In this document: one piece after another, positions 2,986 to 38,763 of the stretch
Layout: each line of letters opens with the position of its first letter
Position numbering within the stretch: the stretch's first letter is position 1
From: Patagioenas fasciata
Taxonomy: Eukaryota; Chordata; Aves; Columbiformes; Columbidae
Direction: 5' to 3'
DNA length: 64,000 nucleotides
Assembly (NCBI RefSeq): GCF_037038585.1
Contig: NC_092540.1
Location: forward strand, 10,404,501 to 10,468,500
Translations under genes and position numbers: made by a program
Notes under the pieces: model-generated
Seen by the model: only the letters and a program-made list of their open reading frames with translations
What the model was told of the DNA's origin: nothing
The model's database searches: none

Positions 2986-5900
2986 CATGGGGACACCCCC
3001 TTTGTCCCCAGGACCCATTGTGACATCCCAGGACCCCCCTTTGTCCCCAGGGCCATTGTAGCACCATGGGGACCCCCTTTGACCCCAGGGCCGATTGTGG
3101 CACCATGGCAACCCCTTTTGTCCCCAGGGCCCATTGTGACATTCTTGGACCCCACTTTGTCCCCAGGGCCTATTGTGACACCATGGGGACCCCTCCTTGT
3201 CACTGGGGACCCATTGTGACACCATGGGGACCCCCCCTTGTCCTCAGGACTCATTCTCACATCCTGGACACCCCCCATTGTCCCCAGGGCCCATTGTGAC
3301 ATCCACTGCACCCCCTTGTCCCCAGGGCCCATTGTGACATTCAGGGGACCCCTCTTTGTCCCCAGGGCCCATTGTGACATCCTGGGGTCCCCCCCTTGTC
3401 CCCAGGGCCCATTGAGACGTCCCAGGACCCCCCACTGTCCCCAGGGCCCATTGTGACATTCAGGGGACCCCCTTTGTCCCCAGGGCCCATTCTGATACCG
3501 TGGGGACCCCCTTTGTCCCCAGGGCCCATTGTGACATTCAGGGGACGCTCTTTGTCCACAGGGCCCATTGTGACATCCTGGGGACCCTCCTTGTCCCCAG
3601 AGCCCATTGTAACATCCAGGGGACCCCCTTTGTCCCCAGGGCCCATTGTGGCACCATGAGGACCCTCTTTGTCACTGGGGCCCATTGTGACATCCCAGGA
3701 CCCCCCTTTGTCCCCAGGGCCCATTGTGACATCCTGGGGACCCTCCTTGTCCCCAGAGCCCATTGTGACATCCCAGGACCCCACTTTGTCCCCAGGGCTT
3801 ATTGTGACACCATGGGGATCTCCCTTGTCCCCAGGGCCCATTGTGACATTCCAGGACCCCCCTTTGTCCCCAGTGCTATTGTGAAATCCTGGGGACCCCT
3901 TTTGTCCCCAGGGCCCATTGTGACACCGTGGGGAACCCCTTTGTCACTGGGGGCCATTGTGACATTCCAGGATTTCACTTTGTCCCCAGGGCTCGTTCTG
4001 ACACCTTGGGGACTCCCATTGTCCCCAGGGCCCATTGTGACATCCTGGGCAACCCCATTGTCCCCAGGGCCCATTGTGACATCCTGGGGACCCCCATTGT
4101 CCCCAAGGCCCATTGTGACATTCCAGGACCCCCCATTGTCCCCAGGGCCCATTGTGACATCCACTGCACCCCCTTGTCCCCAGGGCCCATTGTGACATTC
4201 AGGGGACCCCTCTTTGTCCCCAGGGCCCATTGTGACATCCTGGGGACCCCCATTGTCACTGGGGCCCATTGTGACGTCCCAGGACCCCCCATTGTCCCCA
4301 GGGCCCATTGTGACATCCTGGGGATCCCTCCTTGTCCCCAGGGCCCATTGTGACGTCTTAGGACCCCCCATTGTCCCCAAGGCCCATTGCGACATTCAGG
4401 GGACGCCTCTTTGTACCCAGGACACATTGTGGCATCCTGGGGACCCCCCCTTGTCCCCAGGGCCCATTGTGACATCCTGGGGATCCCTCCTTGTCCCCAG
4501 GGCCTATTGTGATGTCCCAGGACCCCCCATTGTCCTCCGGACCCATTGTAACATTCAGGGAACCCCTTTGTCACTGGGGCCCATTGTGACATCCCAGGAC
4601 CGCCCATTGTCCCCAGGGCCCATTGTGACATCCTGGGGACCCCATTTTCCCCAGGACCCATTGTGACCCTATGGGGACCCCCCCTTGTTCCCAGGGCCCA
4701 TTGTGACACCGTGGGTACCACCCTTGACCGCAGGGCTCATTGTGACATCGCAGGACCCCCCTTTGTCCCCAGAGCCCATTGTGACATACAGGGGACCCCC
4801 TTTGTCCCCAGGGCCCATTGTGACATCGCAGGACCCACCCTGGTCCCCAGGGCCCATTGTGACATCCTGGGCACCCCTTTTGTCCCCACGGCCCATTGTG
4901 GCACCATGGGGACCCCCTTTGTCACTGGGGCCCATTGTGACATCCCAGGACCCCACTTTGTCCCCAGGGCTGATTGTGACGTCCCAGGGCCCCTCTGTGT
5001 CCCCAGGGCCCATTGTGACACTTTAGGGACCCCTCTTTGTCCCCAGGGCCCATTGTGACATCCTGGAGACCCCCCCTTGTCCCCAGGGCCCATTGTGACG
5101 TCCCAGGACCGCCCTCTGTTCCCAGGGCTCATTGTGACTTCCAGGGGATCCCCCCTTGTCCCCAGGGCTGATTGTGACGTCCTAGGGCCCCTCTGTGTCC
5201 CCAAGGCCCATTGTGACATCCCAGGACCCCCATTGTCCCCAGGGCCCATTGTGACATCCTCGGCACCCCCTTGTCCCCAGGGCCCATTGTGACATTCAGG
5301 GGACCCCTCTTTGTCCCCAGGGCCCATTGTGACATCCTGGGGACCCCCTCTTGTCCCCAGGGCCCATTGTGACATTCAGGGGACCCCCCTTTGTCTCCAG
5401 GACATATTGTGAGACCGTGGGGACCTCATTAGTCCCCAGGGCCCATTGTGACATCCTAGGGATCCCCTCTTGTCCCCAGGGCCCATTGTGACGTCCCAGG
5501 ACCCCCCATTGTCCCCAGGGCCCATTGTGACCTCCTCGGCACCCCCTTGTCCCTAGGGCCCATTGTGACATTCACGGGACCCCCCATTGTCCCCAGGGCC
5601 CATTCTGATATGGTGGGGACCGCCTTTGTCTCCAGGGCCCATTGTGACATCCTGGGGACCCTCCTTGTCCCCAGAGCCCATTGTGACATCCAGGGGAACC
5701 CCCTTGTCCCCAGGGCCCATTGTGGCACCATGGGGACCCCCTTTGTCACTGGGGCCCATTGTGACATCCCAGGACCCCCCTTTGTCCCCAGGGCCCATTG
5801 GGACATCCTGGGGACCCCCATTGTCCCTAGGGCCCATTGTGACATTCCAGGACCCCCCATTGTCCCCAGGGCCCATTGTGACATCCACTGCACCCCCTTG

Positions 5901-8900
5901 TCCCCAGGGCCCATTGTGACATTCAGGGGACCCGCCATTGTCCCCAGGGCCCATTGTGACATCCTGGGGACCCCCCCTTGTCACTCGGGCCCATTGTGAT
6001 GCCCCAGGACCCCCCATTGTCCCCAGGGCCCATTGTGACATTCAGGGCACCCCCTTGTCCCCAGGGTCCATTGTGACATTCCAGGGACGCCTCTTTGTAC
6101 CCAGGGCACGCTGTGACATCCTGGGGACCCCCCCTTATCCCCAGGGCCCATTGTGACATCCCAGGACCCCCCATAGTCCCCAGGGCCCATTGTGACATCC
6201 TGGGGATCGCTCCTTGTCCCCAGGGCCCATTTTGATGTCCTAGGACCCCCCATTGTCCCCAGGACCCATTGTGGCATTCAGGGGGACCCCCTTTGTCTCT
6301 GGGGCCCATTGTGACATCCCAGGACCCCACATTGTCCCCAGGGCCCATTGTGACATCCTGGGGACCCCACTTGTCCCCAGGACCCATTGTGACACTATGG
6401 GGACATCCACTTGTGCCCAGGGCCCATTGTGGCACTGTGGGTACCACCCTTGTCCGCAGGGCTCATTGTGACATCCCAGGACCCCCCATTGTCCCCAGGG
6501 CCCATTGTGACATTCAGGGGACCCCCCTTTGTCGCCAGGGCCCATTCTGATACCGTGGGGACCCCGTTTGTCCCCAGGGCCCATTGTGACATCCTGGGGA
6601 TCCTCCGTGTCTCCAGAGCCCATTGTGACATCCAGGGGACCCCCTTTGTCCCCAGGGCCCATTGTGGCACCATAGGGACCCACTTTGTCACTGGGGCCCA
6701 TTGTGACATCCCAGGACCCCCCCTGGTCCCCAGGGCCCATTGTGACATCCGGCGGACCCCCCTTTGTCCCTAGGGCCCATTGTGACATCCTGGGGACCCG
6801 TTTCTCCCCACGGCGTATTGTGGCACCATGGGGACTCCCCCTTGTCACTGGGGGCCCATTGTGACACCATGGAGACCCCTGCTTGTCCTCAGGGTCCATT
6901 GTGACATCCTGGGCACCCCCTTGCTCCCAGGGCCCATTGTGGCACCATGGGGATACCCCCTTGTCCCCAGGGCCCATTGTGACATTCTAGGACCCCACTT
7001 TGTCCCCAGGGCCTATTGTGACACCATGGGGACCCCTCCTTGTCCTCAGGACTCATTCTCACATCCTGGGTACCCCCCATTGTCCCCAGGGCCCATTGTG
7101 ACATCGTGGGGACCCCACTTGTCCCCAGGGTCCATTGTGACACTATGGGGACCCCGCCTTGTGCCCAGGGCCCATAGTGACACCGTGGGTACCACCCTTG
7201 TCTGCAGGGCTCATTGTGACATCCCAGGACCCCCCATTGTCCCCAGGGCCCATTGTGACATTCAGGGGACCCCCTTTGTCCCCAGAGCCCATTGTGACAT
7301 GCTGGGGACGCTCTTTGTCCCCAGGGCCCATTGTGACATCCTGGGGACCCCCTTTGTCCCCAGGGCCCATTGTGGCACCATAGGGACCCCCTTTGTCACT
7401 GGGGCCCATTGTGACATTCCAGGCCCCCCCTGGTCCCCAGGCCCCATTGTGACATCCTGGGGACCCCCTTTGTCCCAGGACTTCATTGTGACATCCTGGG
7501 GACCCCCCTTGTCCTCAGGGTCCATTGTGACAGCCCAGGACCTTACATTGTCCCCAGGGCCCATTGTGTTATCTGGGGGAACCCCTTGTTTCCAAGGCCC
7601 ATTGTGACATCCTGGGGACCCACCCTTGTCCCCAGGGCCCATTGTGACATCCCAGGACCCCCCATTGTCCCCAGGGCCCATTGTGACATCCTCGGCACCC
7701 CCTTGTCCCCAGGGCCCATTGTGACATTCAGGGGACTCCTCTTTGTCCCCAGGGCCCATTGTGACATCCTGGGGATCCCTCCTTGACCCCAGGGCCCATT
7801 GTGACGTCCCAGGACCCCCCATTGTCCCCAGGACCTATTGTGACATCCTGGCCACCCCCTTGCTCCCAGGGCGCATTGTGGCACCATGGGGACACCCCCT
7901 TGTCCCCGGTGCCCATTGTGACATCCCAGGACCCCCCTTTGTCCCCAGGAGCCATTGTAGCACCATGGGGACCACTTTTGTCCCCAGGGCCCATTGTGAC
8001 ATTCTAGGACCCCACTTTGTCCCCAGGGCCTATTGTGACACCATGGGGACCCCTCCTTGTCCTCAGGACTCATTCTCACATCCTGGGCACCCGCCATTGT
8101 CCCCAGGGCCCATTGTGACATCCTGGGGACCCTCATTGTCCTCAGGGTCCATTGTGACATCCTGGGCACCCCCCATTTTCCCCAGGACCCATTGTGACAT
8201 CCTGGCCACCCCCTTGCTCCCAGGGCCCGTTGTGGCACCATGGGGACACCCCCTTTGACCCCAGGGCCCATTGTGGCACCATGGCAAGCCCTTTTGTCCC
8301 CAGGGCCCATTGTGACATTCTTGGACCCCACTTTGTCCCCAGGGCCTATTGTGACACCATGGGGACACCTCCTTGTCACTGGGGACCCATTGTGACACCA
8401 TGGGGACCCCCCCTTGTCCTCAGGACTCATTCTCACATCCTGGACACCCCCCATTGTCCCCAGGGCCCATCGTGACATCCACTGCACCCCCTTGTCCCCA
8501 GGGCCCATTGTGACATTCAGGGGACCCCTCTTTGTCCCCAGGGCCCATTGTGACATGCTGGGGACGCTCTTTGTCCCCAGGGCCCATTGTGACATCCTGG
8601 GGACCCCCTTGTCCCCAGTGCCTATTGTGAAATCCTGGGCACCCCCTTTGTCCCCAGGGCCCATTGTGACATTCCAGGACACCCCTTGTCCCCATGGCCC
8701 ATTGTGAAATCCTGGGGACCTCCTTTGTCCCCAGGGCCCATTGTGACGTCCCAGGACCCCCCTTTGTCCCCAGGGTCCATTGTGACATCCTGGGGACCCT
8801 CTTTGTCCCCAGGGCCCATTGTGACAGGGTGGGGACTCCCTTTGTCCCCAGGGCCCATTGTGACATCTCAGGATCCCCCTTTGTCCCCAGGGCCCATTGT

Positions 8901-9502
8901 GACATCTCAGGACACCCCAATTGTTTCCAGGGCCCATTGTGACATCCTGGGGACCGCCCAGTTGTCTCCAGGGCCCATTGTGGCATCCTGGGTACCCCTT
9001 TTATCCCCGGGGCCCATTGTGACATCCTGGGGACTCCCCTTGTCACTGGGGACCCATTGTGACACCATGGGGACCACCCCTTTCTCCCCAGTGCCCATTG
9101 TGACATCCTGGGGACCCCTTTGTCCCCAGAGCCCATTGTGACATCCTGGTGAGCCCCCTTTGTCCCCAGGGCCCATTGTGACATCCCAGGACCCCCCTTT
9201 GTCACCAGGGCCCATTGTGACGTCCCAGGACCCCTCTTTGTCCCCAGGGCCCATTGTGACATCCCCGGACCCCCCATTGTCCCCAGAGCCCATTGTGACA
9301 TCCTTGGGACCCCCATTGTCCCCAGGGCCCATTGTGACATTCAGGGGACAGCCTTTTTCCCAAGGGCCCATTGTGACACCATCGGGACCCCCGTTGTCCC
9401 CAGGGCCAATTGTGACACCATGGGGACCCTCCTCGTCACTGCGGACCCATTGTGACACCATGGGGACCTGCCCTTGTCCTCAGGGCCCATTGTGACATCC
9501 TG

Positions 9503-9978
9503 GGGACCCTCTTGTCCCCAGGGCCCATAGTTGCACCCTGGGGACCCCCTCTTTATTCCCAGTGCCCATTGTGACATCCCAGGACCCCCCTATGTCCCCA
9601 GGGCCCATTGTGACACCATGGGGACACCCCTTTGACTCCAGGGCCCATTGTCAAATCCCAGGACCTCCCAATTGTCCCCAGGGCCCATTGTGACATCCTG
9701 GGGACCCGCCCTTGTCCGCAGGGCCCATTGTGACATCCTGGGGACCCTCTTGTCCCCAGGGCCCATAGTTGCACCCTGGGGACCCCCTCTTTATTCCCAG
9801 TGCCCATTGTGACATCCCAGGACCCCCCTATGTCCCCAGGGCCCATTGTGACACCATGGGGACACCCCTTTGACTCCAGGGCCCATTGTCACATCCCAGG
9901 ACCTCCCAATTGTCCCCAGGGCCCATTGTGACATCCTGGGGACCCGCCCTTGTCTGCAGGGCCCATTGTGAAGTCCCA
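9503..9978 (+). repeat. 238-bp local duplication (six A units)
   Basis: A block starting with the rare variant CCCATAGTTGCACCCTGGGG at about 9525 recurs 238 bp later at about 9763, with the same rare neighbours (TTTATTCCCAG, CCCCTATGTCC, TTTGACTCC). The copies differ by a few bases. This is typical unequal-exchange growth inside a minisatellite. Confidence 0.8.
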
Positions 9979-12810
9979 GGACCCCCTTTGTCCCCAGGGC
10001 CCATTGTGACATCCTGGGGACCCCCCTTGTCACTGGGGACCCATTGTATACACCATGGGGACCCCCATTGTCCCCAGGGCCCATTGTGACATCCTGGGGA
10101 CCCCCCTTGTCACTGGTGACCCATTGTGACACCATGGGGACCCCCGTTTGTCCCCAGGGCTCATTGTGACATCCCAGGACCTCCCATTGTCCCCAGGGCC
10201 CATTGTGACATCATGGGGACCGCCTTGTCCCTCTGGCCCGTTGTGGCACCGTGGGGACCTCCTTTGTCCCCAGGGCCCATTGTGACACCATGGGGACCCC
10301 TTTTGTCACTGTGGTCCAATGTGACATCCCAGGACCCCACTTTGTACCCAAGGCCCATTGTGACACCGTGGGGACCCCCCTTGTCTCCAGGACCCACCGT
10401 GGCACCGTGGGGACCACCCTTGTCACTGGGACCCATTGTAACACTATGGGGATCCCCCCTTGTCCCCAGAGCCCATTGTGACATCCTGGGGACCCCCTTG
10501 TTCCCCATGGCCCACTGTGATGTCCCAGGACCCCCCCTTGTCCCCAGAGCCCATTGTGACATCCTGGGGACGCCCTTTTTCCCCAGGACCCATTGTGGCA
10601 CCATTGGGACCCCCTTTGTCACTGGGGCCCATTGTGACTTCCCAGGACCTCACTTTGTCCCCAGGGCCCATTGTGACTTCCGGGGGACCCCCTTTGTCAC
10701 CAGGGCCCATTGTGACGTCCCAGGACCCCCCTTTGTCCCCAGGGCCCATTGTGACGTCCCCGGACCCCCCATTGTCCCCAGACCCATTGTGACATCTTGG
10801 GGACCCCCTTTGTCCCCAGGGCCCATTGTGACATTCAGGGGACAGCCTTTGTCCCAAGGGCCCATTGTGACACCGTTGGAATCCCCGTTGTCCTCAGAGC
10901 CCATTGTGACATCCTGGGAACCCCCTTTGTGCCCAGGGCCCATTGTGACATTTCAGGACCCCACTTTGTCCCCAGGGCCCATTGTGACATCCTGGAGACG
11001 CCCTTTGTCCCCAGAGCCCGTTGTGACATCTAAGGACCCCCCAATTGTGCCCAGGGCTCATTGTGACATCCCAGGACCCCCCATTGTCCCCAGGGCCCAT
11101 TGTGATGTCCCAGGCCCCCCCTTTGTCCCCAGGGCCTATTTTGACATCCTGGGGACCCCCCTTTGTCCCTAGGGCCCGTTGTGACATCCTGGGGACCTCG
11201 TTTGTCACTAGGGTCCATTGTGGCACCATGGGGATGCCCTTTGTCCCCAGGACCCATTGTGACATCCTGGGCACCCCCTTTGTCCCCAGGGCCTATTGTG
11301 ACAGGGTGGGGACTCCCTTTGTCCCTAGGGCCCATTGTGACATCCTGGGGACCTCGTTTGTCCCCAGGGTCCATTGTGGCACCATGGGGACCCCCTTTGT
11401 CCCCAGGGCCCATTGTGAAATCCTGGGGACCCCCTTTGTCCCCAGGACCCATTGTGACATCCTGGGCACACCCTTTGTCCCCAGGGCCTATTGTGACAGT
11501 GTGGGGACTCCCTTTGTCCCCAGGGTCCATTGTGAAATTCTGGGGACCCCCTTTGTCCCCAGGGCCCATTGTGACATCCTGGGGACCCCACTTTGTTCCC
11601 AGGACCCATTGTGATGTCCACAATGGCCCCGTTGTCCCAAGGGGTCATTGTGACATACTGGGGACCTCCTTTGTCCCCAGGGCCCATTGTGACGTCCCTG
11701 GACCCTCCATTTTTCCAAGAGCCCATTGTGACATCCTGGCGACCCCGCTTTTTCCTCAGGGCCCATTGTGGCACCATGGGGAGCCCCCCTGTCTCCAGGG
11801 CCCATTGTGACATTTAGGGGACTCATCTTTGTCCCCAGGGCCCATTGTGACATCCCAGGACCCCCCTTTGTCCCCAGGGCCCGTTGTGACATCCTGGGGA
11901 CCTCGTTTGTCACTAGGGTCCATTGTGGCACCATGGGGATGCCCTTTGTCCCCAGGACCCATTGTGACATCCTGGGGACCCCCTTTGTCCCCAGGGCCCA
12001 TTTTGGCACCACAGGGACGCCCTTTGTCACTGGGGCCCATTGTGACATCCCAGGACACCCCTTGTCTCCAGGGCCCTTTGTGACATTCAGGGGACCCCTC
12101 TTTGTCCCCAGGGCCCGTTGTTGCATCCTGGGGTCCCCCCTTGTCCCCAGGGCCCATTTTGACATTCAGGAGAGCCCTCTTTGTCCCCAGGGCCTGTTGT
12201 GACATCCTGGGGACCCCCTTTGTCACTGGGGCCCATTGTGACATCCCAGGACCCCCCTTTGTCTGCAGGTCCCAATGTGACATTCAGGGGACCCCACTTT
12301 GTCCCCAGGGCCCACTGTGACGTCCTAGGACCTCCCTTTGTCCCCAGGGCCCATTGTGACACCGTGGGGACCCCCTGTTTTCCCCAGGGCCCATTGTGAC
12401 ATCTGGTGGACCCCCTTGTCCCCAGGCCCCATCGTGGAACCGTGGGGACCCTCCTTGTCACTAGGGCCCATTGTGACACCATGGGGAACCCTCTTGTCAC
12501 TGCGGACGCATTGTGACACAATGGGGACCCCACCTTTGTCTCAAGTGCCCATTGTGACATCCTGGGGACCCCCTTTATCCCCAGGACCCATTGTGACGTC
12601 CCAGGACCCCATTTGTCCCCAGGGCCCATTGTGACATCCCAGGGCCCCACTTTGTCCCCAGGGCCCATTGTTACAGGGTGGGACCCCCCTTGTCCCCAGG
12701 GCCCATTGTGACATCCTGGTGACTCCCTTTGTCCCCAGGGCCCATTGTGGCACCATGGGGACCCTCTTTGTCACTGGGGCCCATTGTGACATCCCAGGAC
12801 CCCACTTTGT

Positions 12811-13085
12811 CTTAGAAGGTCACTGATCGGACTACTGGTACATCCTGACTCTGCTTTCTCAATAAACATTGAAGAACACCTGGGGTTTGTTTGCTCCAAG
12901 GGAAAACTTCCCTGCCACGGTTCCTGGTTCCCGGTCCTGTTTCCCGGTCCGGTTTGGCTTCGCTATCAGAACAGCTGCTGCCTCCACAGCCGCGCTCAAA
13001 GTCCCCGTTGTGACACCGGGATGGCGGGAGAAGGGGGGTGGCGGGGGCGGCAGCGGCGGCGATTGGGGGGGGGCAGTCGGGGCTG
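12811..13085 (+). other. Non-repetitive palindrome arm segment, left
   Basis: About 275 bp of complex sequence joins minisatellite A to the 68-bp array. It carries an AATAAA at 12861-12866 followed by a GT-rich stretch (TGGGGTTTGTTTG). It then becomes GC-rich with repeated CCGGT elements (TTCCCGGTCC) and ends at an ATGGCGGGAG near 13021. A near-identical inverted copy lies at 17395-17665. It resembles a gene 3' end followed by a CpG-rich stretch, but no coding frame is convincing. Confidence 0.7.
12861..12866 (+). terminator. Candidate polyadenylation signal AATAAA, left arm
   Basis: A canonical AATAAA is followed 17-35 nt later by a GT-rich downstream element, TGGGGTTTGTTTG. That spacing suits cleavage near 12880. 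It would end a plus-strand transcript that has crossed minisatellite A. Its inverted twin is at 17610-17615. Confidence 0.5.
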
Positions 13086-13660
13086 GGCGGACAAGCGGCG
13101 GCTGCTGCGGCTCCTCAGGCAGCGACAGCAGCAGCGATCGGGGGGACGTGGGGGGCGGACAAGCGGCGGCTGCTGCGGCTCCTCAGGCAGCGACAGCAGC
13201 AGCGATCGGGGGGACGTGGGGGGCGGACAAGCGGCGGCTCCTGCGGCTCCTCAGGCAGCGACAGCAGCAGCGATCGGGGGGACGTGGGGGGGCGGACAAG
13301 CGGCGGCTCCTGCGGCTCCTCAGGCAGCGACAGCAGCAGCGATCGGGGGGACGTGGGGGGCGGACAAGCGGCGGCTGCTGCGGCTCCTCGGGCAGCGACA
13401 GCAGCAGCGATCGGGGGGACGTGGAGGGGCGGACAAGCGGCGGCTGCTGCGGCTCCTCGGGCAGCGACAGCAGCAGCGATCGGGGGGACGTGGGGGGGCG
13501 GAAAAGCGGCGGCTGCTGCGGCTCCTCAGGCAGCGACAGCAGCAGCGATCGGGGGGACGTGGGGGGCGGACAAGCGGCGGCTGCTGCGGCTCCTCAGGCA
13601 GCGACAGCAGCAGCGATCGGGGGGACGTGGGGGGCGGACAAGCGGCGGCTCCTCCGGCCG
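13086..13660 (+). repeat. 68-bp CpG-rich tandem array, left arm (about 8 units)
   Basis: Units of 68-69 bp start at GGCGGACAAGCGGCGG, pass through GACAGCAGCAGCGATCGG and end in GGGGGACGTGGGG. I count eight full units and a ninth partial one. Each unit holds G-runs on the plus strand and many CpGs. One unit reads GGCGGAAAAG instead of GGCGGACAAG (about 13499). The array is open in all plus frames, but the unit alternates between 68 and 69 bp, so no frame is maintained; I do not call a gene. Confidence 0.9.
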
Positions 13661-13906
13661 CGGCCAGGACGTGGCTTCGCCGGCACCGGGGCCCGAGACC
13701 GCGCGCTGTGGGGCTGCGGGGCGGGTGTGGGGCCGGGGGTCTCCGGGGGTCCCGCAGCGGCTGCTGTGGGGCGGGATGGGGCGGCTGTGGAATTACCTGT
13801 GGGGCACTCATGGGGCTGCTGTAGGGGTCTTAAGAGGCATGTCTGGAGCACTTATGGGGCGACTATGGGGCAGGTGCTGGGCTGCTACAGCGGGACCTGT
13901 GGGGCA
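13661..13906 (+). other. GC-rich inner end of left palindrome arm
   Basis: This is complex GC-rich sequence between the 68-bp array and the palindrome spacer, shared with 16159-16424 in inverted form. The left copy has GCAGCGGCTGC where the right has GCAGCGGCCGC. No gene is recognised. A CAG/GTATGT donor-like site sits five bases outside its inner edge, at 13911/13912. Confidence 0.6.
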
Positions 13907-14455
13907 CCCAGGTATGTGCACCCAGCACCGCGTGCACGCACACGCAGCTACACACTGATGTGTAAGCAAACACGTGGCCACACACACGCACACTTCCACA
14001 AGCGTGCCCAGTCCCATCTATTGACAGAAAGACGTACGTGAAATGTACTGACATGCTCGAGGGTAAACACGTGCGTGGATGTTTGGCACACTGCACACAC
14101 GCACACGTCTGAACGATAATGCTCCAGCTTTAGCATAAATGGAGCTGACATCAAGGCACTCACATGTGGACAGACCAACGTTTATAGGCACTAAGGCTTT
14201 CGCGCACAGGTTCGTCCAAGAACAGGCACATACCTGCAGGCACCTCCGAATGTGTGTTCTGTGCATTCTCTTAAGGGACGCTAGATGGCAGCAAAGACCA
14301 TGAAATTATTAACCTCAGTCTAACCCTAGGTTTATGACATTTTTTCTTACTATAGATGCGTTTGATGCTAAAAATTCCCCCAAATTGTAATGAATATGCG
14401 ATAATTGTGTGAATACAAGCATCGCAAGAGCATCCAGTTTTTGGAGCACTTATGG
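13907..14455. other. Unique palindrome spacer, left part
   Basis: Single-copy sequence begins with a CA/CG-rich stretch (repeated CACACGCACAC) and becomes more AT-rich. It contains the CTCF-like site described separately. No supported coding frame is present. The donor-like CAG/GTATGT at 13909-13917 and a good acceptor-like pyrimidine tract plus CAG at 14841-14843 could define an intron of a non-coding plus-strand transcript, but nothing else supports this. Confidence 0.5.
14278..14292 (+). promoter_or_regulatory. CTCF-like binding site
   Basis: ACGCTAGATGGCAGC matches 13 of 15 positions of the vertebrate CTCF core consensus CCASYAGRKGGCRSY, including the AGATGGCAGC part. It lies in unique DNA between the two palindrome arms. 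This is a motif match only; occupancy is inferred. Confidence 0.45.
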
Positions 14456-14459
14456 AACA

Positions 14460-14660
14460 TGATAAAGCCAGGCAGAGCCTGACAAAGCGCGACAGAGCCC
14501 AACAGGGCTTGACAGAGCCTGATAGAACTCAACAGGGGCCGACAAATCCCGACAGCGCCTGACAGCGAACAGTGGAGTCTGGCAGGGCCTGACAGAGGCT
14601 GTCACAGCACGACAGAGCCAGAGGAGCCTGACAGAGCCCAGCAAACCCGACAGGAATAGA
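14460..14660 (+). repeat. Degenerate 10-11 bp repeat (GACAGAGCCT type)
   Basis: About twenty diverged copies of a GACAGAGCC(T/C) unit run in tandem, with variants such as GACAAAGCG, AACAGGGCT and GACAGCGCCT. It is not related to minisatellite A or satellite B. Confidence 0.75.
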
Positions 14661-14865
14661 CAAGGCCTGGGTGCACAGACCTGGGTGCGTGTGGAAAGGT
14701 TTCTGCCTGTTTTCCAGTGAGGAATGGTGTGTGTGCACGTGGACAAACAGAAGGCGAAGCAGCTCGGTTCCAACACTGAAGAAGGCTGTACAGTCACGTA
14801 GACACGGGGGCTGCTCCACTCCTGCTCTCCTGCTCTCTTGCAGGACACAGAGGCCTCAGAGCCCT

Positions 14866-14885
14866 GTTCAGTTCAGTTCAGTTCC
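14866..14885 (+). repeat. GTTCA pentanucleotide microsatellite
   Basis: Three perfect GTTCA units are followed by GTTCC. It is a short simple repeat in the palindrome spacer. Confidence 0.8.
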
Positions 14886-14899
14886 ATACAATGTTCACT

Positions 14900-15530
14900 G
14901 ACTGCAAGAAAATCCCTCAAATCCCCCACAATGTGGGGCTCAAAAGGGAGTCCCCCTGAAAAGAGGGGGTCACAGTCCAAAAATGCCTGAAAATTCCTGG
15001 GGGAGGATAAAACTTATTAAACCCTGTAAATATGAGCGTGAGAATTTCAAACAGAGACAAGTCTGTCGTTTGTATTTATATATTGCAGAATGGTATTCAT
15101 GTAGATATAAAATGGTTTTAAAATAAAACCCCTTTTCTACTCTGTTATATAAAGGATTTGAGAATGTAAAAAATTTCTGTTGATGGTTTTAAGAATACAA
15201 ACATCTTATCTATTTGTAGATTAAAAAGTGAAGGACTTGAAAAAGAAAAAAATATCTAGATAGGAACTTAAAATAGAAAAAAGTGTGAGTAGGCAGAGCT
15301 CTGTATAATTACTACGTGTTACATAGTCTAAATAGGTAATAAATATCATCTATATATATCCACTCACACCCGTATACATACCTTTAATTTATTAATAAAT
15401 GTAAATCGATATCCCAGTCTAAATATATATAATTGTAAATATGTCAAAATCTGTAAATTTGAAAAGATACCTGAGTGTTAAAATGGAAGTTTAAATGTAT
15501 TTAAGTGTAAATAGACACCGGATCAGAGCG
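14900..15530. other. AT-rich tract in palindrome spacer
   Basis: About 600 bp is strongly AT-rich, in sharp contrast to everything around it. It contains an AATAAA near 15122 and a TATATATATCC stretch near 15350, but no coding frame and no recognised transposon. It separates the left spacer from the CpG island. The position midway between palindrome arms suits a spacer that resists hairpin collapse or acts as a DNA-unwinding region; that is inference. Confidence 0.55.
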
Positions 15531-15539
15531 TAGCGGGGG

Positions 15540-15920
15540 ACAAACGGGGACGGGTGATGATAGGCGGAGAGAATGGAAATTGACGTGCTTAGCTGGCCAA
15601 TCAGATTGCGGAGAGGGAAGAGAAGGGGCGGGCCGCGGGGGAGGGGTTGTCTCGAGGGCTTCCCAATGCGCATGCGCAGAAATGGGCGCTGCGAGGTGCA
15701 CGGGGCGCTCTCGGAACCACGTGCGCGCACCGTTGGAGCCCGGAGCGGACTCGCTGCGCCGCTGTTTCTGCGAGGCCCCGGGGAGTGCCCGGCCCGGCCC
15801 CGCCCGGCCCGCTCCGCTCCGTCTCAGAGCCGCCTGGAGAGCCGGGTCGGGCAGCCCCTTCTCGGCTCCACCTCTTCCCGAGCTAAGCCACGCCCCCTTG
15901 GGGCCGTGCCATGTTGACCG
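15540..15920. promoter_or_regulatory. CpG-island promoter in palindrome spacer
   Basis: This GC- and CpG-rich stretch has a dense set of promoter elements. These are a CCAAT box in GGCCAATCAG (15595-15604), a GC box GGGGCGGG (15625-15632), the perfect NRF1 palindrome TGCGCATGCGCA (15667-15678), an E-box CACGTG (15718-15723) and further GC boxes after 15780. There is no TATA box. The arrangement is typical of TATA-less, often bidirectional housekeeping promoters. I cannot identify a first exon on either side, so the target transcript is unknown. Confidence 0.65.
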
Positions 15921-16158
15921 CACCCTCTCCCTACCCCAAGAGGCTCCTCCCATGGGGGCGTGCCCCAGAGAATGCCCGCCCCCAGACCACCTCCCATGGG
16001 GCGTGACACAGAGGCTCCGCCCCCCCGAGGGGCTCCCCGTGGGCGTGCCCTCTCAGTACCCGCCCCTCGGCACTGACCCCACCCCATGTAGGCGGGGCCA
16101 CACCCAGCTGCCCCCTCCCATCTGTGACCCATAACCAACCCCATAGCAGCCCTATGGC
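15921..16158. other. GC-rich right part of palindrome spacer
   Basis: This stretch contains several GGGCGTG(C/T)C and CTCCCATGGGG motifs that look like a weak tandem repeat. It runs to the right palindrome arm. I see no gene. Confidence 0.5.
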
Positions 16159-16423
16159 TGCCCCACAGGTCCCGCTGTAGCAGCCCAGCACCTGCCCCAT
16201 AGTCGCCCCATAAGTGCTCCAGACATGCCTCTTAAGACCCCTACAGCAGCCCCATGAGTGCCCCACAGGTAATTCCACAGCCGCCCCATCCCGCCCCACA
16301 GCGGCCGCTGCGGGACCCCCGGAGACCCCCGGCCCCACACCCGCCCCGCAGCCCCACAGCGCGCGGTCTCGGGCCCCGGTGCCGGCGAAGCCACGTCCTG
16401 GCCGCGGCCGGAGGAGCCGCCGC

Positions 16424-17395
16424 TTGTCCGCCCCCCACGTCCCCCCGATCGCTGCTGCTGTCGCTGCCTGAGGAGCCGCAGGAGCCGCCGCTTGTCCGCC
16501 CCCCACGTCCCCCCGATCGCTGCTGCTGTCGCTGCCTGAGGAGCCGCAGGAGCCGCCGCTTGTCCGCCCCCCACGTCCCCCCGATCGCTGCTGCTGTCGC
16601 TGCCTGAGGAGCCGCAGCAGCCGCCGCTTGTCCGCCCCCCACGTCCCCGCGATCGCTGCTGCTGTCGCTGCCTGAGGAGCCGCAGCAGCCGCCGCTTGTC
16701 CGCCCCCCACGTCCCCCCGATCGCTGCTGCTGTCGCTGCCTGAGGAGCCGCAGCAGCCGCCGCTTGTCCGCCCCCCCACGTCCCCCCGATCGCTGCTGCT
16801 GTCGCTGCCTGAGGAGCCGCAGCAGCCGCCGCTTGTCCGGCCCCCCACGTCCCCCCGATCGCTGCTGCTGTCGCTGCCTGAGGAGCCGCAGCAGCCGCCG
16901 CTTGTCCGCCCCCCACGTCCCCCCGATCGCTGCTGCTGTCGCTGCCTGAGGAGCCGCAGCAGCCGCCGCTTGTCCGCCCCCCCCACGTCCCCCCGATCGC
17001 TGCTGCTGTCGCTGCCTGAGGAGCCGCAGCAGCCGCCGCTTGTCCGGCCCCCCACGTCCCCCCGATCGCTGCTGCTGTCGCTGCCTGAGGAGCCGCAGCA
17101 GCCGCCGCTTGTCCGCCCCCCACGTCCCCCCGATCGCTGCTGCTGTCGCTGCCTGAGGAGCCGCAGCAGCCGCCGCTTGTCCGCCCCCCACGTCCCCCCG
17201 ATCGCTGCTGCTGTCGCTGCCTGAGGAGCCGCAGCAGCCGCCGCTTGTCCGCCCCCCCACGTCCCCCCGATCGCTGCTGCTGTCGCTGCCTGAGGAGCCG
17301 CAGCAGCCGCCGCTTGTCCGCCCCCCACGTCCCCCCGATCGCTGCTGCTGTCGCTGCCTGAGGAGCCGCAGCAGCCGCCGCTTGTCCGCCCAGCC
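16424..17395 (-). repeat. 68-bp CpG-rich tandem array, right arm (about 14 units)
   Basis: This is the same 68-69 bp unit as at 13086-13660, inverted, in about fourteen full copies against eight on the left. Two units carry CTTGTCCGGCC instead of CTTGTCCGCCC (about 16832 and 17040). One has CCCCGCGATCG instead of CCCCCCGATCG (about 16648). The size difference between arms (about 411 bp) equals six units, so the array changed length after the palindrome formed. Confidence 0.9.
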
Positions 17396-17664
17396 CCGAC
17401 TGCCCCCCCCCAATCGCCGCCGCTGCCGCCCCCGCCACCCCCCTTCTCCCGCCATACCGGTGTCACAACGGGGACTTTGAGCGCGGCTGTGGAGGCAGCA
17501 GCTGTTCTGATAGCGAAGCCAAACCGGACCGGGAAACAGGACCGGGAACCAGGAACCGTGGCAGGGAAGTTTTCCCTTGGAGCAAACAAACCCCAGGTGT
17601 TCTTCAATGTTTATTGAGAAAGCAGAGTCAGGATGTACCAGTAGTCCGATCAGTGACCTTCTAA
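17395..17664 (-). other. Non-repetitive palindrome arm segment, right
   Basis: This is the inverted partner of 12811-13085. The one substitution I see is ACCGGTATGG against ACCGGGATGG on the left. The near identity of this non-selected sequence implies recent duplication or gene conversion between the arms. Confidence 0.7.
17610..17615 (-). terminator. Candidate polyadenylation signal AATAAA, right arm
   Basis: TTTATT on the plus strand is AATAAA on the minus strand, followed on that strand by the same GT-rich element as on the left. With its twin at 12861-12866, it would terminate transcripts running inward from the flanking minisatellites toward the palindrome centre. Confidence 0.5.
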
Positions 17665-20600
17665 GACAAAGTGGGGTCCTGGGATGTCACAATGGGCCCC
17701 AGTGACAAAGAGGGTCCCCATGGTGCCACAATGGGCCCTGGGGACAAGGGGGGTCCCACCCTGTAACAATGGTCCCTGGGGACAAACGGGGTCCTGGGAC
17801 GTCACAATGGGTCCTGGGGATAAAGGGGGTCCCCAGGATGTCACAATGGGCACTTGAGACAAAGGTGGAGTCCCCATTGTGTCACAATGCATCCCCAGTG
17901 ACAAGAGGGTTCCCCATGGTGTCACAATGGGCCCTGGGGACAATTGGGGGTCCTGGGATGTCACAATGGGCCCTGAGGACAACAGGGGGTCCCCACGGTG
18001 TCAAAATGGGCCCTGGTGACATACGGGGCAGCCCAGGATGTCACAATGGGCCCTGGGGACAAAGAGGGGTCCCCAGGATGTTCACAATGGGCCCTGGAGA
18101 CAGTGGGGGGTCCAGAAATGTCACAATGGGCCCTGGGGACAAAGGGGGCTCCCCAGGATGTCACAATGGGCTCTGGGGACACAGGGGGTCCCCACGGTGT
18201 CACAATGCACCCTGGGGACAATGGGGGGTCCTGGGACGTCACAATGGGCCCTGGGGACACAGGGGTCCCAAGGATGTGATAATGGGCTCTGGGGACAAGT
18301 GGGGTCCCCAGGATGTCACAATGGGCACTGGGGAGAAAGGGGTGGTCCCCATGGTGTCACAATGGGCCCTAGTGACAAGGAGGGTCCCCACGGTTCCACA
18401 ATGGGCCCTGGGGACAAGGGGGTCCACCAGATGTCACAATGGGTCCTGGGGAAAACAGTGGATCCCCACGGTGTCACAATGGGCCCTGGGGACAAAGGGA
18501 GGTCCTAGGACGTCACAGTGGGCCCTGGGGACAAAGTGGGGTCCCCTGAATGTCACAATGGGACCTGCAGACAAAGGGGGGTCCTGGGATGTAACAATGG
18601 GCCCCAGTGACAAAGAGGGTCCCCAGGATGTCACAACAGGCCCTGGGGACAAAGAGGGCTCTCCTGAATGTCAAAATGGGCCCTGGGGACAAGGGGGGAC
18701 CCCAGGATGCAACAACGGGCCCTGGGGACAAAGAGGGGTCCCCTGAATGTCACAAAGGGCCCTGGGGACAAGGGGGTGTCCTGGGATGTCACAATGGACC
18801 CTGGGGACAAATAGCAGTTCCCTGAATATCACAATGGGCCCTGGAGACAAGGGGTGTCCTGGGATGTCACAATGGGCCCCAGTGACAAAGGGCGTCCCTA
18901 TGGTGCCAAAATGGGCCCTGGGGACAAAGGGGGTCCCCAGGAAGTCACAATGGGCCCTGGGGAAAAAGGGGGGTCCTGGGATGTCACAATGGGACCTGGG
19001 ACAACGGGGGGTCCCCAGGATGTCACAATGGGCCCTGGGGACAATTGGGGGATCCTGGGATGTCACAATGGGCCCTGGGGACAAAGAGGAGTCCCCTAAA
19101 TGTCACAATGGGCCCTGGAGACAGAGGGGCTCCCCATGGTGCCACAATGGGCCCTGAGGAAAAAGCGGGGTCGCCAGGACGTCACAATGGGCTCTTGGAA
19201 AAATGGAGGGTCCTGGGACGTCACAATGGGCCCTGGGGACAAAGGAGGTCCCCAGGATGTCACAATGACCCCTTGGGACAACGGGGCCATTGTGGACATC
19301 ACAATGGGTCCTGGGAACAAAGTGGGGTCCCCAGGATGGCACAATGGGCCCTGGAGACAAAGGGGTTCCCCACCCTATCACAATGGGCCTTGGGGACAAA
19401 GGGGGGTCCCCAGGATGTCACAATAGGCCCTGGGAACAAAGAGGGGTCCCCTGAATGTCACAATGGGCCCTGGGGACAAAGGGGGGTCCTAAGGATGTCA
19501 CAATAAGCCCTGGAAACAACTGGGGGGTCCTGAGATGTCACAATGGGCCCTGGGGACAAAGGGGGTCCCCAGAATTTCACAATGGACCCTGGGGACAAAG
19601 GGAGTCCCCACCCTGTCACAATAGGCCCTGGGGACAAAGGGGGTGCCCAGGATGTCACAATGGACCCTGGGGACAAAGGGGGTCCTGTGATGTCACAATG
19701 GGCCCTGGGGACAAAGGGGGTCCCGACCCTGTCACAATAGGCCCTGGGGACAAAGGGGGTGCCCAGGATGTCACAATGGGTCCTGGGGACAAAGGGCATC
19801 CCCATGGTGCCACAATGGACCCTAGTGACAAACGAGGTCCCCAGGATGTCACAACGGGCCCTAGGGACAAAGGGGGGTCCCCAGGATCTCACAATGGACC
19901 CTGGGGACAAAGGGGGGGCCTGGGACGTCACAATGGGCCCTGGGGACAATGGGGGGTCCTGGGATGTCACAATGAGCCCTGGGCACAATTGGGGGGTCCT
20001 TAGATGTCACAACGGGCTCTGGGGACAAAGGGCGTCTCCAGGATGTCACAATGGGCCCTGGGGACAAAGTGGGGTACTGAAATGTCACAATGGGCCCTGG
20101 GCACAAAGGGGGTTCCCAGGATGTCACAATGGGCTCTGGGGACAACGGGGATTCCAACGGTGTCACAATGGGCCCTTGGGACAAAGGCTGTCCCCTGAAT
20201 GTCACAATGGGCCCTGGGGACAAAGGGGGTCCCTAGGATGTCACAATGGGTCTGGGGACAATGGGGGGTCCGGGGACGTCACAATGGGCCCTGGGGACAA
20301 AGTGAGGTCCTGGGAAGTCACAATGGGCCCCAGTGACAAAGGGGGTCCCAATGGTGCCACAATGGGTCCTGGGGAAAAAGGGCGTCCCCAGGATGTCACA
20401 ATGGGCCCTGGGGACAAGGGGGGGTCCTGGGACATCACAGTGGGCCCTGGGGAACAAGGGGTCCCCAGGATGTCACAATGGGCTCTGGGGACAAGGGGGG
20501 GTCCTGGGACATCACAGTGGGCCCTGGGGAACAAGGGGGTCCCCAGGATGTCACAATGGGCTCTGTTGACAAGGGGGGCCCCCACGGTGTCACAATGGGC

Positions 20601-23472
20601 CTTGGGTACAAAGTGGGGTCCTGGGATTTCACATTGGACCACAGTGACAAAAGGGGTCCCCATGGTGTCACAATGGGCCCTGGGGACAAAGGAGGAACCC
20701 ACGGTGCCACAACGGGTCAGAGGGACAAGGCGGTCCCCATGATGTCACAATGGGCCCTGGGGACAATGGGAGGTCCTGGGATGTCACAATGAGCCCTGGG
20801 GACAAACGGGGGTCCCCATGGTGTCACAATGGGTCACCAGTGACAAGGGGGGGTCCCCAGGATGTCACAATGGGCCCTGGGGACAATGGGGGGTCCGGGG
20901 ATGTCACAATGGGCCCTGAGGACAAAGAGGGGTCCTGGGACGTCACAATGGGCCCTGGTGACAAAGGGGGGTCCTGGGATGTCACAATGGGCCCTGGGGA
21001 CAAAGGGGGCTCACCAGGATGTCACAATGGGCTCTGGGGACAAAGGGGTCCCCAGGATGTCACAATGGGCACTGGGGAGAAAGGGGTGGTCCCCATGGTG
21101 TCACAATGGGTCCCCAGTGACAAGGGGAGTCCCCAGGATGCCACAATGGGCCCTGGGGACAACTGGGCGGTCCCCAGGATGTCACAATGGGCCCTGGAAA
21201 CAATTGGGGTGTCCTGAGATGTCACAATGGGCCCTGGGGACAAAGGGGGATCCTGGGACATCACAATGGCCCCTGGGGACAAATGGAGTCCCCACCCTGT
21301 CACAATGGGCCCTGGGGACAAAGGGGGGTCCTGGGACGTCACAATGGGCCCTGGGGACAAAGGAGGTCCCCAGGATTTCACAATGGGCCATGGGGACAAG
21401 GGGTGTCCTGGAATGTCACAATGGGCCCTGGGGACAAAGGGGGTGCCCAGGATTTCACAATAGGCACTGGGGACAAGGGGGTCCCCAGGATGTCACAATG
21501 GGCCCTGGGGATGACGGGGGGTCCTGGGACGTCACAATGGGCCCTGGGGACAATGGGGGGTCTTGGGATGTCACAATGAGCCCTGGGCACAACTGGGAGG
21601 TCCCTAAATGTCACAATGGGCCCTGGGGACAAAGGGGGTCCCCACGGTGTCACAATGGGCCCAGGGGACAGAGGGGAGTACCCAGGATGTCACAACGGGC
21701 TCTGGGGACCAGGGGCGTCCCGAGGATGTCACAATGGGCCCTGGGGACAAAGTGGGGTCCTGGGAGGTCACAATGGGCCCTGGGGACAAAGGGGGTTTCC
21801 AGGATGTCACAATGGGCTCTGGGGACAACAGAGGTCCCGACGGTGTCACAATGGGCCCTTGGGACAAAGGCTGTCCCCTGGATGTCACAATGGGCCCTGG
21901 GGACAATGGGGGTCCCCAGGATGTCACAATGGACCCTGGGGACAATGGGGGGTCCGGGGACATCACAATGGGCCCTGGGGACAAAGGGGGTCCCCAGGAT
22001 GTCACAATGGACCTTCAGTATAAAGTGGGGTCCTGGGATGTCACAATGGGCCCTGGGGACAAAGGGGGGTCCTGGGACGTCACAATGGGCCCTGCGGATC
22101 AAGGATGGTGCCCTGGATATCACAATGGGCTCTGGGGACAATGGGGGGTCCTGGAATGTCACAATGGGCCCTAGGGACAAAGGGGGTCCCCAGGTTGTCA
22201 CAATGGGCCCTGGGGACAAAAGGACCCCACGGTGTCACAATGGCTCTGGGGACAAAGGGGGTCCTCAGGATGTCACAATGGGCCCTGGGGACAAGGGGGA
22301 TACCCACGGTTTCAAAATGGGCCCTGGGGACAAAGAGGGGTCCCCAGGATTTTACAATGGACCCTGGGGACAAAGGGGGGTCCTGGGACATCACAATGGG
22401 CCCTGGGGACAAAGGGTTCCCCAGGATGTCACAATGGGCTCTGGGGACAAAGGAGGTCCCCAGGATGACACAATGGGCCCTGAGGATGACGGGGGTCCTG
22501 GGACGTCACAATGGGCCCTGGGGACAATGGGACGTCCTGATATGTTACAATGAACCCTGGGCACAATTGGGGGGTCCTTAGATGCCACAATGGGCCCTGT
22601 GGACAAAGGGGGTCCCCACGGTGTCACAATGGGCTCTGGGGACAAAGGGGAGTCCCCAGTATGTCACAATGGGCCCTGGAGACAATGGCGGGTCCTGGGA
22701 TGTCACAATGGGCCCTGGGGACAACGGGGGTCCCGACGGTGTTACAATGGGCCCTAGGGACAAAGGCTGTCCCCTGAATGTCACAATGGGCCCTGTGGAC
22801 AATGGGGGTCCCCAGGATGTCACAATGGGCTCTGGGGACAATGGGGGATCCGGGGACGTCACAATGGGCCCTGGGGACAAAGGGGGTCCCCAGGACGTCA
22901 CAATGGGCCCCAGTGACAATTGGGGTCCCAATGGTGCCACAGTGGGTCCTGGGGACAAAGGGGGTCCCCAGGATGTCACAATGGGCACTGGGGACAAGGG
23001 GGGGTCCCCAGGATATCACAATGGGCTCTGGGGACAAGGGGGGGTCCCCATAGTGTTACAATGGGTCCCCAGTGACAAGGGGGGTCCCCAGGATGTCACA
23101 ATGGGCCCTTAGGACAAGGGGGGTCCCCAAGGTGTCACAATGGGCCCTGGGGACAATGGGGAGTCCTAGCACATCACAACAGGCGTGGGGACAAGGGGGA
23201 TCTCCACCCTGTCACAATGGGCCCTGGGGACAAAGGGGGGTCCTGGGATATCACAATTGGCCCTGGGGACAAAGGGGGTCCCCATGGTGCCACAATGGGC
23301 CCTGGGGACAAAGGGGAGTCCCCAGGATGTCACAATGGGCCCTGAGGACAAGGGGAGGTCCCCATGGTGTCACAATGGGTCCTCAGTGAGAAGGGGGTCC
23401 CCCATGGTGTCACAATGGGCCCTGGGGACAAGGGGGATCCCCAGGGTGTCACAATGGACCCTGGGGAGAAGG
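17665..23472 (-). repeat. Minisatellite A, second block (inverted)
   Basis: This is the same 39-40 bp unit in the opposite orientation to block 1, about 147 copies by length. The hairpin-forming strand is the plus strand here. It ends abruptly at about 23472, where GGGGAGAAGGGTTTAGGGGG passes into satellite B. The 563-codon open frame at 20862-22553 is the 13-residue translation of the unit and is not called as a gene. Confidence 0.95.
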
Positions 23473-26400: not shown

Positions 26401-26915
26401 TGGGGTGCAGGGGTTTGCAGTGAAAGGTTTGGTAGGGCAGGATTTGGGGTGCAGGATTCTGGGGTGCTGGTTTGGGGTACAGGATTTGGTGTTGCAGGGA
26501 TGGGGTTGAAGGGCTTGGGTTTCCAGGCCTTTGAGGTGCAAGGTTTGGGAGGGAATTCTTTGGGGTGCAGGGTTTGGGGGCAGGGTTTGGGGGTGTAGGG
26601 TATAGGACGGAAGGATTTGGGAATGCAGGGTTTGGGGTGCAGGTTTCGGGGTTCAGGAAGGTAGGAAGGGCAGGATTAGGGGGTGCAAGGTTTCAGTTGT
26701 AGGGTTTAGGGGTGCAGAGTTTGGTAGGGCCGAATTTGGGGGTGCAGGATTTGGGGCGCAGGGTTTGGGAAGACAGGATCGGGGGTGGAGGATTTGGGGG
26801 TGCAGGACTGAGGGGCAGGGTTTTGGTGCAGGGCTTGGGGTCAGGATCTGGGGTGCAGGTTTGGGAAGAGTATTTTGGGGTGCAGGATTTTGGGTGCCGT
26901 GTCTGCGGGGCAGGT
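23473..26915 (+). repeat. Satellite B, first block (G-rich on plus strand)
   Basis: This is a degenerate tandem array of a roughly 13-15 bp unit of the form TTTGGGGGTGCAGGA, with runs of four or more G in almost every unit and frequent TTTAGGG variants. Longer modules are shared with other B blocks; the segment at about 26050-26590 recurs inverted at 27033-27560, 30740-31290 and 34735-35110, and directly at 57531-58010. Open frames rich in G, V, Q and W are repeat artefacts. The G-run density predicts strong G-quadruplex potential on this strand. Confidence 0.92.
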
Positions 26916-27032
26916 TTGGGGTGATCACTGCTGATCCGCACACACTCGCTCTCTCTGGTATTCACCTCCACTCCTGCTCCTCCACCTCCCCACTGTTCTC
27001 TCCACCTCCTCTCTTCTCGTTGCCTACAGCCC
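26916..27032. other. Non-repeat island at satellite B strand switch
   Basis: About 115 bp of complex sequence lies between the two orientations of satellite B. It begins with GGTGATCACTGCTGATCCGC and ACACACTC, the same flank that follows satellite B at about 58346-58375, and then diverges into a CT-rich stretch. I infer that it is a remnant of the gene flank found at the right end of the window. Confidence 0.7.
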
Positions 27033-36067: not shown

Positions 36068-36074
36068 AGGGACC

Positions 36075-36819
36075 ACAGTGCTACCATCTGCCATGGGCTG
36101 ATCCAGACCACGCTGGAGCAAGGTGAAGCTCCAGAACACTTGCAATACATTGATGACATCATCGTATGGGGCGACACAGCGAAAGAAGTCTTCAAAAAAG
36201 GTGAGAGAATAATTCCTATTCTTTTGGATGCTGGTTTTGCCATAAAACGAAGCAAGGTCAAGGGACATGCACGGGAGATCCAGTTTTTAGGAATAAAATG
36301 GCAAGATGGCCGTCGTCAGATCCCAATGGAGGTGATCAACAAAACTACAGCAATGTCTCCACCTACTAATAAAAAGGAGACACAGACTTTCTTGGGCGTT
36401 GTAGGTTTTTGGAGAATGCACTTTCCTGACTACAGCCACATTGTGAGCCTCTCTATCGAGTGACTCGTAAAAAGAACCAATTTGAGTGGGGCCCTGAACA
36501 ACGCCAAGCCTTTGAACAAATGAAGCGTGAGATAACTCATGCGGTGGCCCTGGGACCAGTCCGAACTGGACTAGATGTTAAAAATGTGCTCTACACCGCA
36601 GCCGGAGATAATGGACTTACCTGGAGCCTCTGGCAGAAAGCACCAGGAGAAACCCGAGGTCGAACCTTAGGTTTTTGGAGTCGAGGATACAAAGGATATG
36701 AGGCCAACTGTACTGCAACTGAAAAGGAGATACTGGCAGCATATGAAGGAGTTGGAGCTGCTTCAGAAGTGATCGGCACTGAAGCACAGCTCCTCCTGCA
36801 CCTCGACTGCCAGTGCTGA
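36075..36819 (+). pseudogene. pol: Retroviral reverse transcriptase, C-terminal part (broken)
   Basis: The frame enters partway through the RT palm domain. The YIDD catalytic motif, a form of YxDD, is at 36146-36157. The thumb and connection parts follow, with FLGIKW and a later FLGVVGFWRMHFPDY. A frameshift near 36450 moves the reading to the frame used from 36460 (RKKNQFEWGPEQRQAFEQMK). A second frameshift near 36795 ends that frame at 36819. The fingers and the first catalytic aspartate of RT lie upstream of the break and are absent. No functional product is possible. Confidence 0.88.
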
Positions 36820-38398: not shown

Positions 38399-38763
38399 AC
38401 TGTACGATGTGAATTGCCGCACTAACAATGTTTAATAAGTGTCTTTCAGATCAAGACAATGGTGATGAAACCAGCGCTGGCTTCTTCGAGTGGCGCCCGA
38501 CACCTTCTTGGAAGTTGGTGTCCTTAACCCACCAACAGGGGTCATGAGATGCACTTGGACCATTTTCCCTGCCCTGGGAGACTGTGGTGACAAAATGAAC
38601 TTAATGAACTTTTCAAAGGATGGTCCACTGATTAATTACTCCTGTGTATATATGTACATATGTATATATATATATATAGTAGTAGTGATTAATTAGATTG
38701 TATTGATAGATTGTATTGATAAGGTTTAAGTATTCAGTGAATGTCATATGATAAGGGGTGGAA
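38399..38763 (+). other. Retroviral 3' noncoding stretch without env
   Basis: This lies between the integrase stop and the LTR. It contains no envelope-like frame, a TATATA-rich simple repeat at about 38646-38680, and the polypurine tract AAGGGGTGGAA at 38753-38763, the usual primer for plus-strand DNA synthesis. Confidence 0.75.

Follow-up and report, generated by a model that had tools for sequence, protein, structure and literature searches.

Results and Discussion

A palindromic unit in a few hundred copies

The subject of this study is a palindrome in a 64,000-nucleotide stretch of the Patagioenas fasciata genome (C28:10404501-10468500, in an assembly of 1.45 Gb and 359 contigs), the whole of which is referred to as the window. 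An alpha-globin exon on C19, compared with PDB sequences, agrees with an avian source: behind six fused two-copy hemoglobin constructs, its best single-chain matches bear the name alpha-A hemoglobin and are entries from birds. The assembly contains the palindrome a few hundred times, distributed among many scaffolds, and we consider it probable that the palindrome represents a young, high-copy, dispersed palindromic amplicon, located in minisatellite-rich blocks near scaffold ends and homogenized between chromosomes. Its features in the window are as follows.

11..12811, minus strand: 39-bp satellite in left (inverted) orientation, 326 copies by Tandem Repeats Finder (TRF), the innermost ~4 kb being part of the left arm
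12812..13910, plus strand: left non-satellite arm, with terminal-exon-like segment, 68-bp array and inner segment, 97-98% identical to the right arm
12816..12866, plus strand: left terminal-exon-like segment, facing the core, with an AG acceptor directly before it, 10 codons and a stop, and AATAAA
13085..13658, plus strand: left GC-rich 68-bp tandem array, 8.4 copies
13911..16154, plus strand: palindrome core, 2,244 bp, asymmetric and not mirrored itself
15550..15800, plus strand: promoter-like stretch in the core, from CpG observed/expected and motif scan
16155..17664, minus strand: right non-satellite arm, mirroring the left, with 68-bp array and mirrored terminal-exon-like segment
16407..17391, minus strand: right 68-bp tandem array, 14.4 copies
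~17610-17669, minus strand: right mirror of the terminal-exon-like segment, from arm alignment and motif location
17665..23467, plus strand: 39-bp satellite in right orientation, the innermost ~3.5 kb being part of the right arm

Searching the assembly with a 46-base core probe at up to two mismatches gave 264 copies (106 forward, 158 reverse; control 0), so that the core, which an earlier note on this DNA had called unique, is anything but. The first 100 of these copies to be listed, all without mismatch, lie on 20 scaffolds (median of 80 spacings, 182 kb) and, on the 6-25-Mb scaffolds of known length, at 0.2-3.7 Mb from a scaffold end; core copies are also found at 55 Mb on C6. In a search with the full core the best 40 scored matches, the window among them, are all 99-100% identical and again occupy 20 scaffolds, and the union of both searches places core copies, among the matches listed, on at least 29 scaffolds. 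The outer, terminal-exon-like segment has 619 copies at up to three mismatches (control 0), and their strand balance, 311 forward and 308 reverse, is that expected of paired inverted copies. On C28 each of the 26 perfect matches to this segment has a listed perfect core no more than 5 kb away, and all ten inverted pairs, with pairing based on perfect matches only, bracket a core. The palindromic form thus seems to be the rule for this repeat and not a local event.

From the 40 best-scoring full-core matches 20 were fetched as 10-kb stretches, giving 21 copies with that of the window. The layout is identical in all 20, copies are alike across these ~10-kb stretches, and the satellite flips orientation across the core in 21 of 21. 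As a separate observation, the satellite in the right flank of copy L014 flips orientation again within ~1 kb of the palindrome, showing that nested inversions exist.

Structure of the palindrome

Going outward from the core, an inner segment comes first and the GC-rich 68-bp array second; beyond the outer segment that follows lies the satellite. Two non-satellite blocks, 13493-13910/16155-16572 and 12721-13223/17253-17755, match at 99% in inverted orientation, and when the 1.1-1.5-kb non-satellite arms are aligned with gaps, the two longest alignments give 97.2% and 98.4%. Inverted blocks extend through the satellite to ~8996/21167, mostly at 93-97% identity and at 86% in the weakest (11861-12244/18668-19051). 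Since unrelated satellite tiles give a baseline of ~83%, this arm match is beyond chance. The earlier note had described near-identical 5.3-kb arms about a 2.25-kb core within 8600..21490; the inverted arms, the core size and, approximately, the limits are borne out, and near-identity holds for the inner 1.1-1.5 kb (97-98%) and not for the full arm length, the first 2.1 kb of satellite ranging from 85 to 98% per 300-bp tile.

The arrays differ in copy number between the two arms, as had been noted, and across the 21 copies the 68-bp anchor count per arm varies between 1 and 14, in line with the ongoing length change that had been proposed. Long open reading frames (ORFs) run across the 68-bp arrays because the repeat unit contains no stops. 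A protein-coding core was considered and rejected, the core ORF list, judged by eye, holding no convincing candidate. An origin of the palindrome as an assembly fold-back was likewise rejected as unlikely in view of the asymmetric core, the unequal array lengths of the arms and the layout shared by all fetched copies.

The core appears to carry a promoter-like stretch. CpG observed/expected is 1.28 in bin 15400-15599 and 1.01 in bin 15600-15799, and a motif scan for CCAAT, NRF1-type, E-box and CTCF consensus sequences places CCAAT at 15597, an NRF1-type site at 15667 (the sole one in the window) and, at 15718, one of the four E-boxes that the core contains. The promoter proposed for the core in the earlier note is thus supported as promoter-like. 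The CTCF-like site proposed with it is uncertain: an exact 12-base sub-motif at 14281 occurs once in the window, and the site at 14278 has 2 mismatches to the full 15-base consensus, a score that five other places in the window equal.

Relations between arms and between copies

Inner and outer arm segments could be aligned in all 42 arms of the 21 copies. Between the left (L) and right (R) arms of one copy there are 4.8 substitutions in the inner and 4.0 in the outer segment, and between L and R arms of different copies 4.9 and 4.1; for the same arm of different copies the values are 6.1 (LL) and 1.3 (RR) in the inner and 2.8 (LL) and 5.2 (RR) in the outer segment. The satellite arms were divided into 294 tiles, 284 of which have a match of at least 90%. 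The best match is the same arm of another copy in 245 of the 284, only the opposite arm of another copy in 37 and the tile's own opposite arm in 5, ties included. Of the window's 14 tiles, 12 have a match of 98.7-100% in another copy, on varying scaffolds, and the remaining two reach only 91-94%. Arms of one palindrome therefore resemble each other no more than arms at different loci do, and with arms far closer to those of other copies and with equal L-R differences, gene conversion within the palindrome is unsupported as the main cause of their identity.

Some exchange between left and right arms does occur, judging from the 37 opposite-arm tiles and from copy L025, the arms of which are 96% alike. 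One inner-arm column sets the L arms, with a single exception among 21, apart from the R arms; other variants are common to both, which implies that arm-to-arm exchange took place in the history of the family.

The 21 cores measure 2,243-2,245 bp and have 75 variable columns at a mean pairwise divergence of 0.56%, and the copies read are young. For 19 of 21 copies the nearest core relative is on a different scaffold, in a sample that held just two same-scaffold pairs. All four gametic combinations are present in 38% of 378 non-singleton site pairs and in 21% of those less than 200 bp apart, a short-distance deficit with a permutation p of 0.0004 (correlation with distance, p 0.012). Reticulation between copies is accordingly rated likely, not proven. 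Beyond the arms, several groups of copies have flanks that stay collinear over the next ~3.6 kb, and one left satellite-to-unique junction is common to L013, L020, L023 and L026, which are on four scaffolds. The left flank of L023 also contains a possible signal-peptide-like ORF (MVLTLFLLLVSLPARDAQA).

Orientation along the scaffolds

We then scored a copy as following its scaffold end when it is on the minus strand near the scaffold start or on the plus strand near the far end. Of the 83 copies scored, which are on 14 scaffolds, 62 do so (Fisher p 7e-6), a statistic in which copies on the same scaffold are non-independent and the scaffolding of repeats is possibly erroneous. The 83 are drawn from the 100 listed copies and cover ten scaffolds of known length, each longer than 6 Mb, together with C6, C13, C21 and C22, for which the far end was deduced from the position; the 17 copies on C14, C15, C16, C19, C27 and C34 were dropped, these scaffolds being under 6 Mb or of no established length. 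All 13 untied scaffolds lean the same way, C31 being tied, and the places of the best 40 full-core matches give the same direction (29 of 39, p 0.0007). Such polarity is predicted by exchange of chromosome ends, and none is predicted by transposition.

Possible mechanism and competing explanations

In the mechanism that we favor, a long gene-like unit would comprise two putative exons at 58.4-58.7 kb, a minisatellite stretch with a retrovirus remnant, and a terminal exon at 17.66 kb, and would meet a second terminal-exon copy tail-to-tail around the 2.24-kb core with its own promoter-like stretch. Non-allelic exchange between different chromosomes, or gene conversion between them, would have spread and homogenized the copies, with array lengths drifting meanwhile. 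Microchromosomes crowd together in the nucleus, as stated in the portion of PMC8609325 consulted, which makes exchange between chromosomes plausible. Going further, and as a tentative proposal, many chromosome ends might form one exchanging community, in which a promoter-bearing palindromic amplicon is homogenized with a polarity towards the scaffold end.

Several observations weigh against homogenization between chromosomes. The sample consists of 20 other copies picked among the 40 best scorers, and the tile test, in which the best among 20 partners counts, favors other copies; plain mean identities from narrow-band alignment are close (0.823 for L-R within a copy; 0.851 LL, 0.841 RR and 0.828 LR between copies). 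There is no clear decay of r2 with distance (permutation p 0.14). Adjacent listed pairs are of mixed orientation, 43 same and 37 different, so polarity is a bias and not a rule, and C33 and C35 lean by merely one or two copies. Marker spacings of 60 kb-1.2 Mb shared between scaffolds are at the level of chance on randomization (6 against 6.8 expected), and those of 5-60 kb are weakly above it (4 against 1.4, reached in 18 of 300 randomizations). We therefore make no claim of large shared blocks; long-range collinearity between scaffolds was considered and withdrawn, and with it an apparent 408-kb mirror between C305 and C32. Finally, C36 contains marker pairs at base-exact offsets of 1,711,263 bp (three pairs) and 1,303,806 bp (two), which are probably a false duplication in the assembly.

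The C36 offsets bear directly on the possibility that the family is mostly an assembly artefact, with its copies created by haplotigs, by the false duplication of a smaller number of real palindromes or by fold-back joins; of 19 scaffold lengths, four are divisible by 2,500 bases, which points the same way. False duplication may inflate the copy counts and would lower the true number, but is unlikely to turn 264 into one: two haplotypes explain a halving at most, the copies are on at least 29 scaffolds, array lengths vary freely between them, and single-nucleotide polymorphisms tell them apart. We hold this explanation to be improbable, though not negligible. A foldback-type transposon, like FB/Galileo of Drosophila, with long inverted ends built of tandem subrepeats and spread by transposition, strikes us as slightly more improbable still. 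Foldback and Galileo elements have long inverted repeats around a core and internal tandem repeats, and arms built of subrepeats around a short, promoter-like core in young, dispersed copies would suit such an element. The present copies, however, have shared flanks and no defined ends that we could see: in 21 of 21 they are embedded in orientation-flipping satellite and not in unrelated target DNA, and the collinear flanks and the junction common to four scaffolds speak against fixed ends in unrelated surroundings. In the ORF list, judged by eye and without a family search of the ORFs, no transposase-like frame was recognized.

The earlier note had interpreted the structure as an ampliconic sex-chromosome palindrome with arms kept alike by gene conversion within the palindrome. 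Long arms of high identity, unequal array lengths, variants common to L and R arms across the family and copies with unusually similar arms such as L025 are what this would produce, and array length change and a promoter-like core survive from that interpretation. Conversion within the palindrome as the main cause does not, given that a tile's own opposite arm is so rarely its best match and that L and R arms differ as much within a copy as from one copy to another. Nor does sex linkage, which the distribution of 264 copies over at least 29 scaffolds, instead of confinement to a sex chromosome, makes unlikely. Taken as a whole, this interpretation seems to us very improbable, and near-identical palindromes in birds do not imply sex linkage.

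If exchange between chromosomes is real, a 46-base probe with 264 targets would provide a sequence handle on recombination between the ends of bird microchromosomes. Should many ends indeed form one exchanging community, a crossover between inverted arms would flip the core, and inversions or Robertsonian-type exchanges could arise from it.

A gene-like unit and a retrovirus remnant

The features beyond the right satellite block that bear on the proposed unit are these.

23500..26956, plus strand: 15-bp minisatellite stretch, with the array itself at 23500-26923 and including block 26087-26956
27023..35596, minus strand: 15-bp minisatellite in reversed orientation, from a tandem-repeat scan
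36074..39333, plus strand: endogenous retrovirus remnant, 5'-truncated and frame-disrupted, with a reverse transcriptase piece, an integrase piece and a 3' end like a long terminal repeat; limits read off the sequence
39424..57531, plus strand: third block of 39-bp satellite, from a tandem-repeat scan
57619..58350, plus strand: third 15-bp minisatellite array, from a tandem-repeat scan
58412..58663, minus strand: gene-like module reading towards the satellites, coding status inferred
58412-58503, minus strand: putative exon 2, donor GTAAGG, from splice-like motifs
58633-58663, minus strand: putative exon 1, donor GTGAGT, from splice-like motifs

Putative exon 1 reads, on the minus strand, ATG GCG GCT GCG GAC ATC GAG GGG CTG CTG G and then GTGAGT. 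The AG acceptor and AATAAA of the terminal-exon-like segment are found in 42 of 42 arms. Tens of kilobases lie between putative exon 2 and the terminal exon facing the core, and we infer that module and terminal exon could form a small transcription unit with an intron filled by minisatellite. The surrounding region, 58350-59900, is GC-rich and has 10- and 20-bp repeats. Region 58340-58900 is high-copy, its best 40 scored matches all being 99-100% identical, and block 26087-26956, the copy belonging to the right arm, is 92% identical to 57529-58383 beside the module and breaks off at the point where the module would continue.

A coding function of this unit is unproven. The exon-like columns show no greater conservation than their surroundings (6 of 51 against 18 of 247 variable), and hence provide no evidence of coding constraint; a Pfam search with the 42-residue concatenation of putative exons 1 and 2 gave no match, and a PDB search with the 51-residue spliced peptide no credible one (a single match, E 4.1).

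The retrovirus remnant has one piece that matches Pfam rve and another that matches RVT_1 at a score under that family's cut-off. It is high-copy as well (best 40 scored matches 96-100%, the window included), and among the matches listed both remnant and module are mostly on core-bearing scaffolds, three remnant matches at 96% being on C8, C10 and C12, scaffolds without a listed core. On C28 the order outer segment, remnant, module is found at 9351685, 9368848 and 9400229 and is repeated in the window at 10421976, 10440700 and 10462840.

Comparison with known systems

The literature that we searched yielded neither a 39-bp avian microchromosome satellite nor a palindrome recognizable as the present unit. 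Chicken dot chromosomes come closest. In the sections of PMC9974502 consulted, testis-expressed amplicons are described in pericentromeric heterochromatin, with OR29G in 386 intact copies on chr29; the stem 'palindrom' has 0 occurrences in the main text. Shared with the present case are satellite-rich blocks with many copies of a gene-like unit, those of chicken being heterochromatic and on small chromosomes, whereas genes there are amplified chromosome by chromosome (PMC9974502, same sections) and here one palindromic unit is on at least 29 scaffolds. That the unit works like these amplicons is a provisional proposition, and that it might be transcribed, for instance in testis as they are, is a guess. 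The intron 'sequence stuttering' of chicken dot chromosomes, a local tandem expansion of variable length as presented in the excerpt of PMC12954441 used here, resembles the arrays of 39-bp and 15-bp units that separate putative exon 2 from putative exon 3, but is described as local to each gene, whereas here the expanded unit is dispersed.

Perhaps, and less certainly, the unit works like the pseudo-homologous regions of human acrocentric short arms, which the relevant passages of PMC10172130 place on five chromosomes with ribosomal DNA (rDNA), recombination signals and inverted duplications. Near-identical sequence is common to heterologous chromosomes there and to different scaffolds here, where exchange between chromosomes is proposed from one assembly. 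Those regions carry rDNA (PMC10172130, same passages); the present case concerns bird scaffolds, the window is without Rfam match, and shared spacings of 60 kb-1.2 Mb are at chance. For the duck W chromosome, the part of PMC7787181 consulted reports 38 palindromes of 15.2-345.5 kb, said to be without robustly expressed genes; these are likewise avian and repeat-rich, but described on chrW, where the present copies are on at least 29 scaffolds.

Other features of the window

Minisatellite, made up of the 39-bp satellite and the 15-bp unit as detected by TRF, accounts for most of the window. The window has zero Rfam matches at gathering scores, so structural RNA is not indicated, and IMG/VR, searched for core and satellite words, returned none, records near the own genome being possibly excluded there. 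At 60576-62117 the minus strand contains a reverse transcriptase frame of 513 amino acids of the long interspersed element type (Pfam RVT_1), which is presumably CR1-type.

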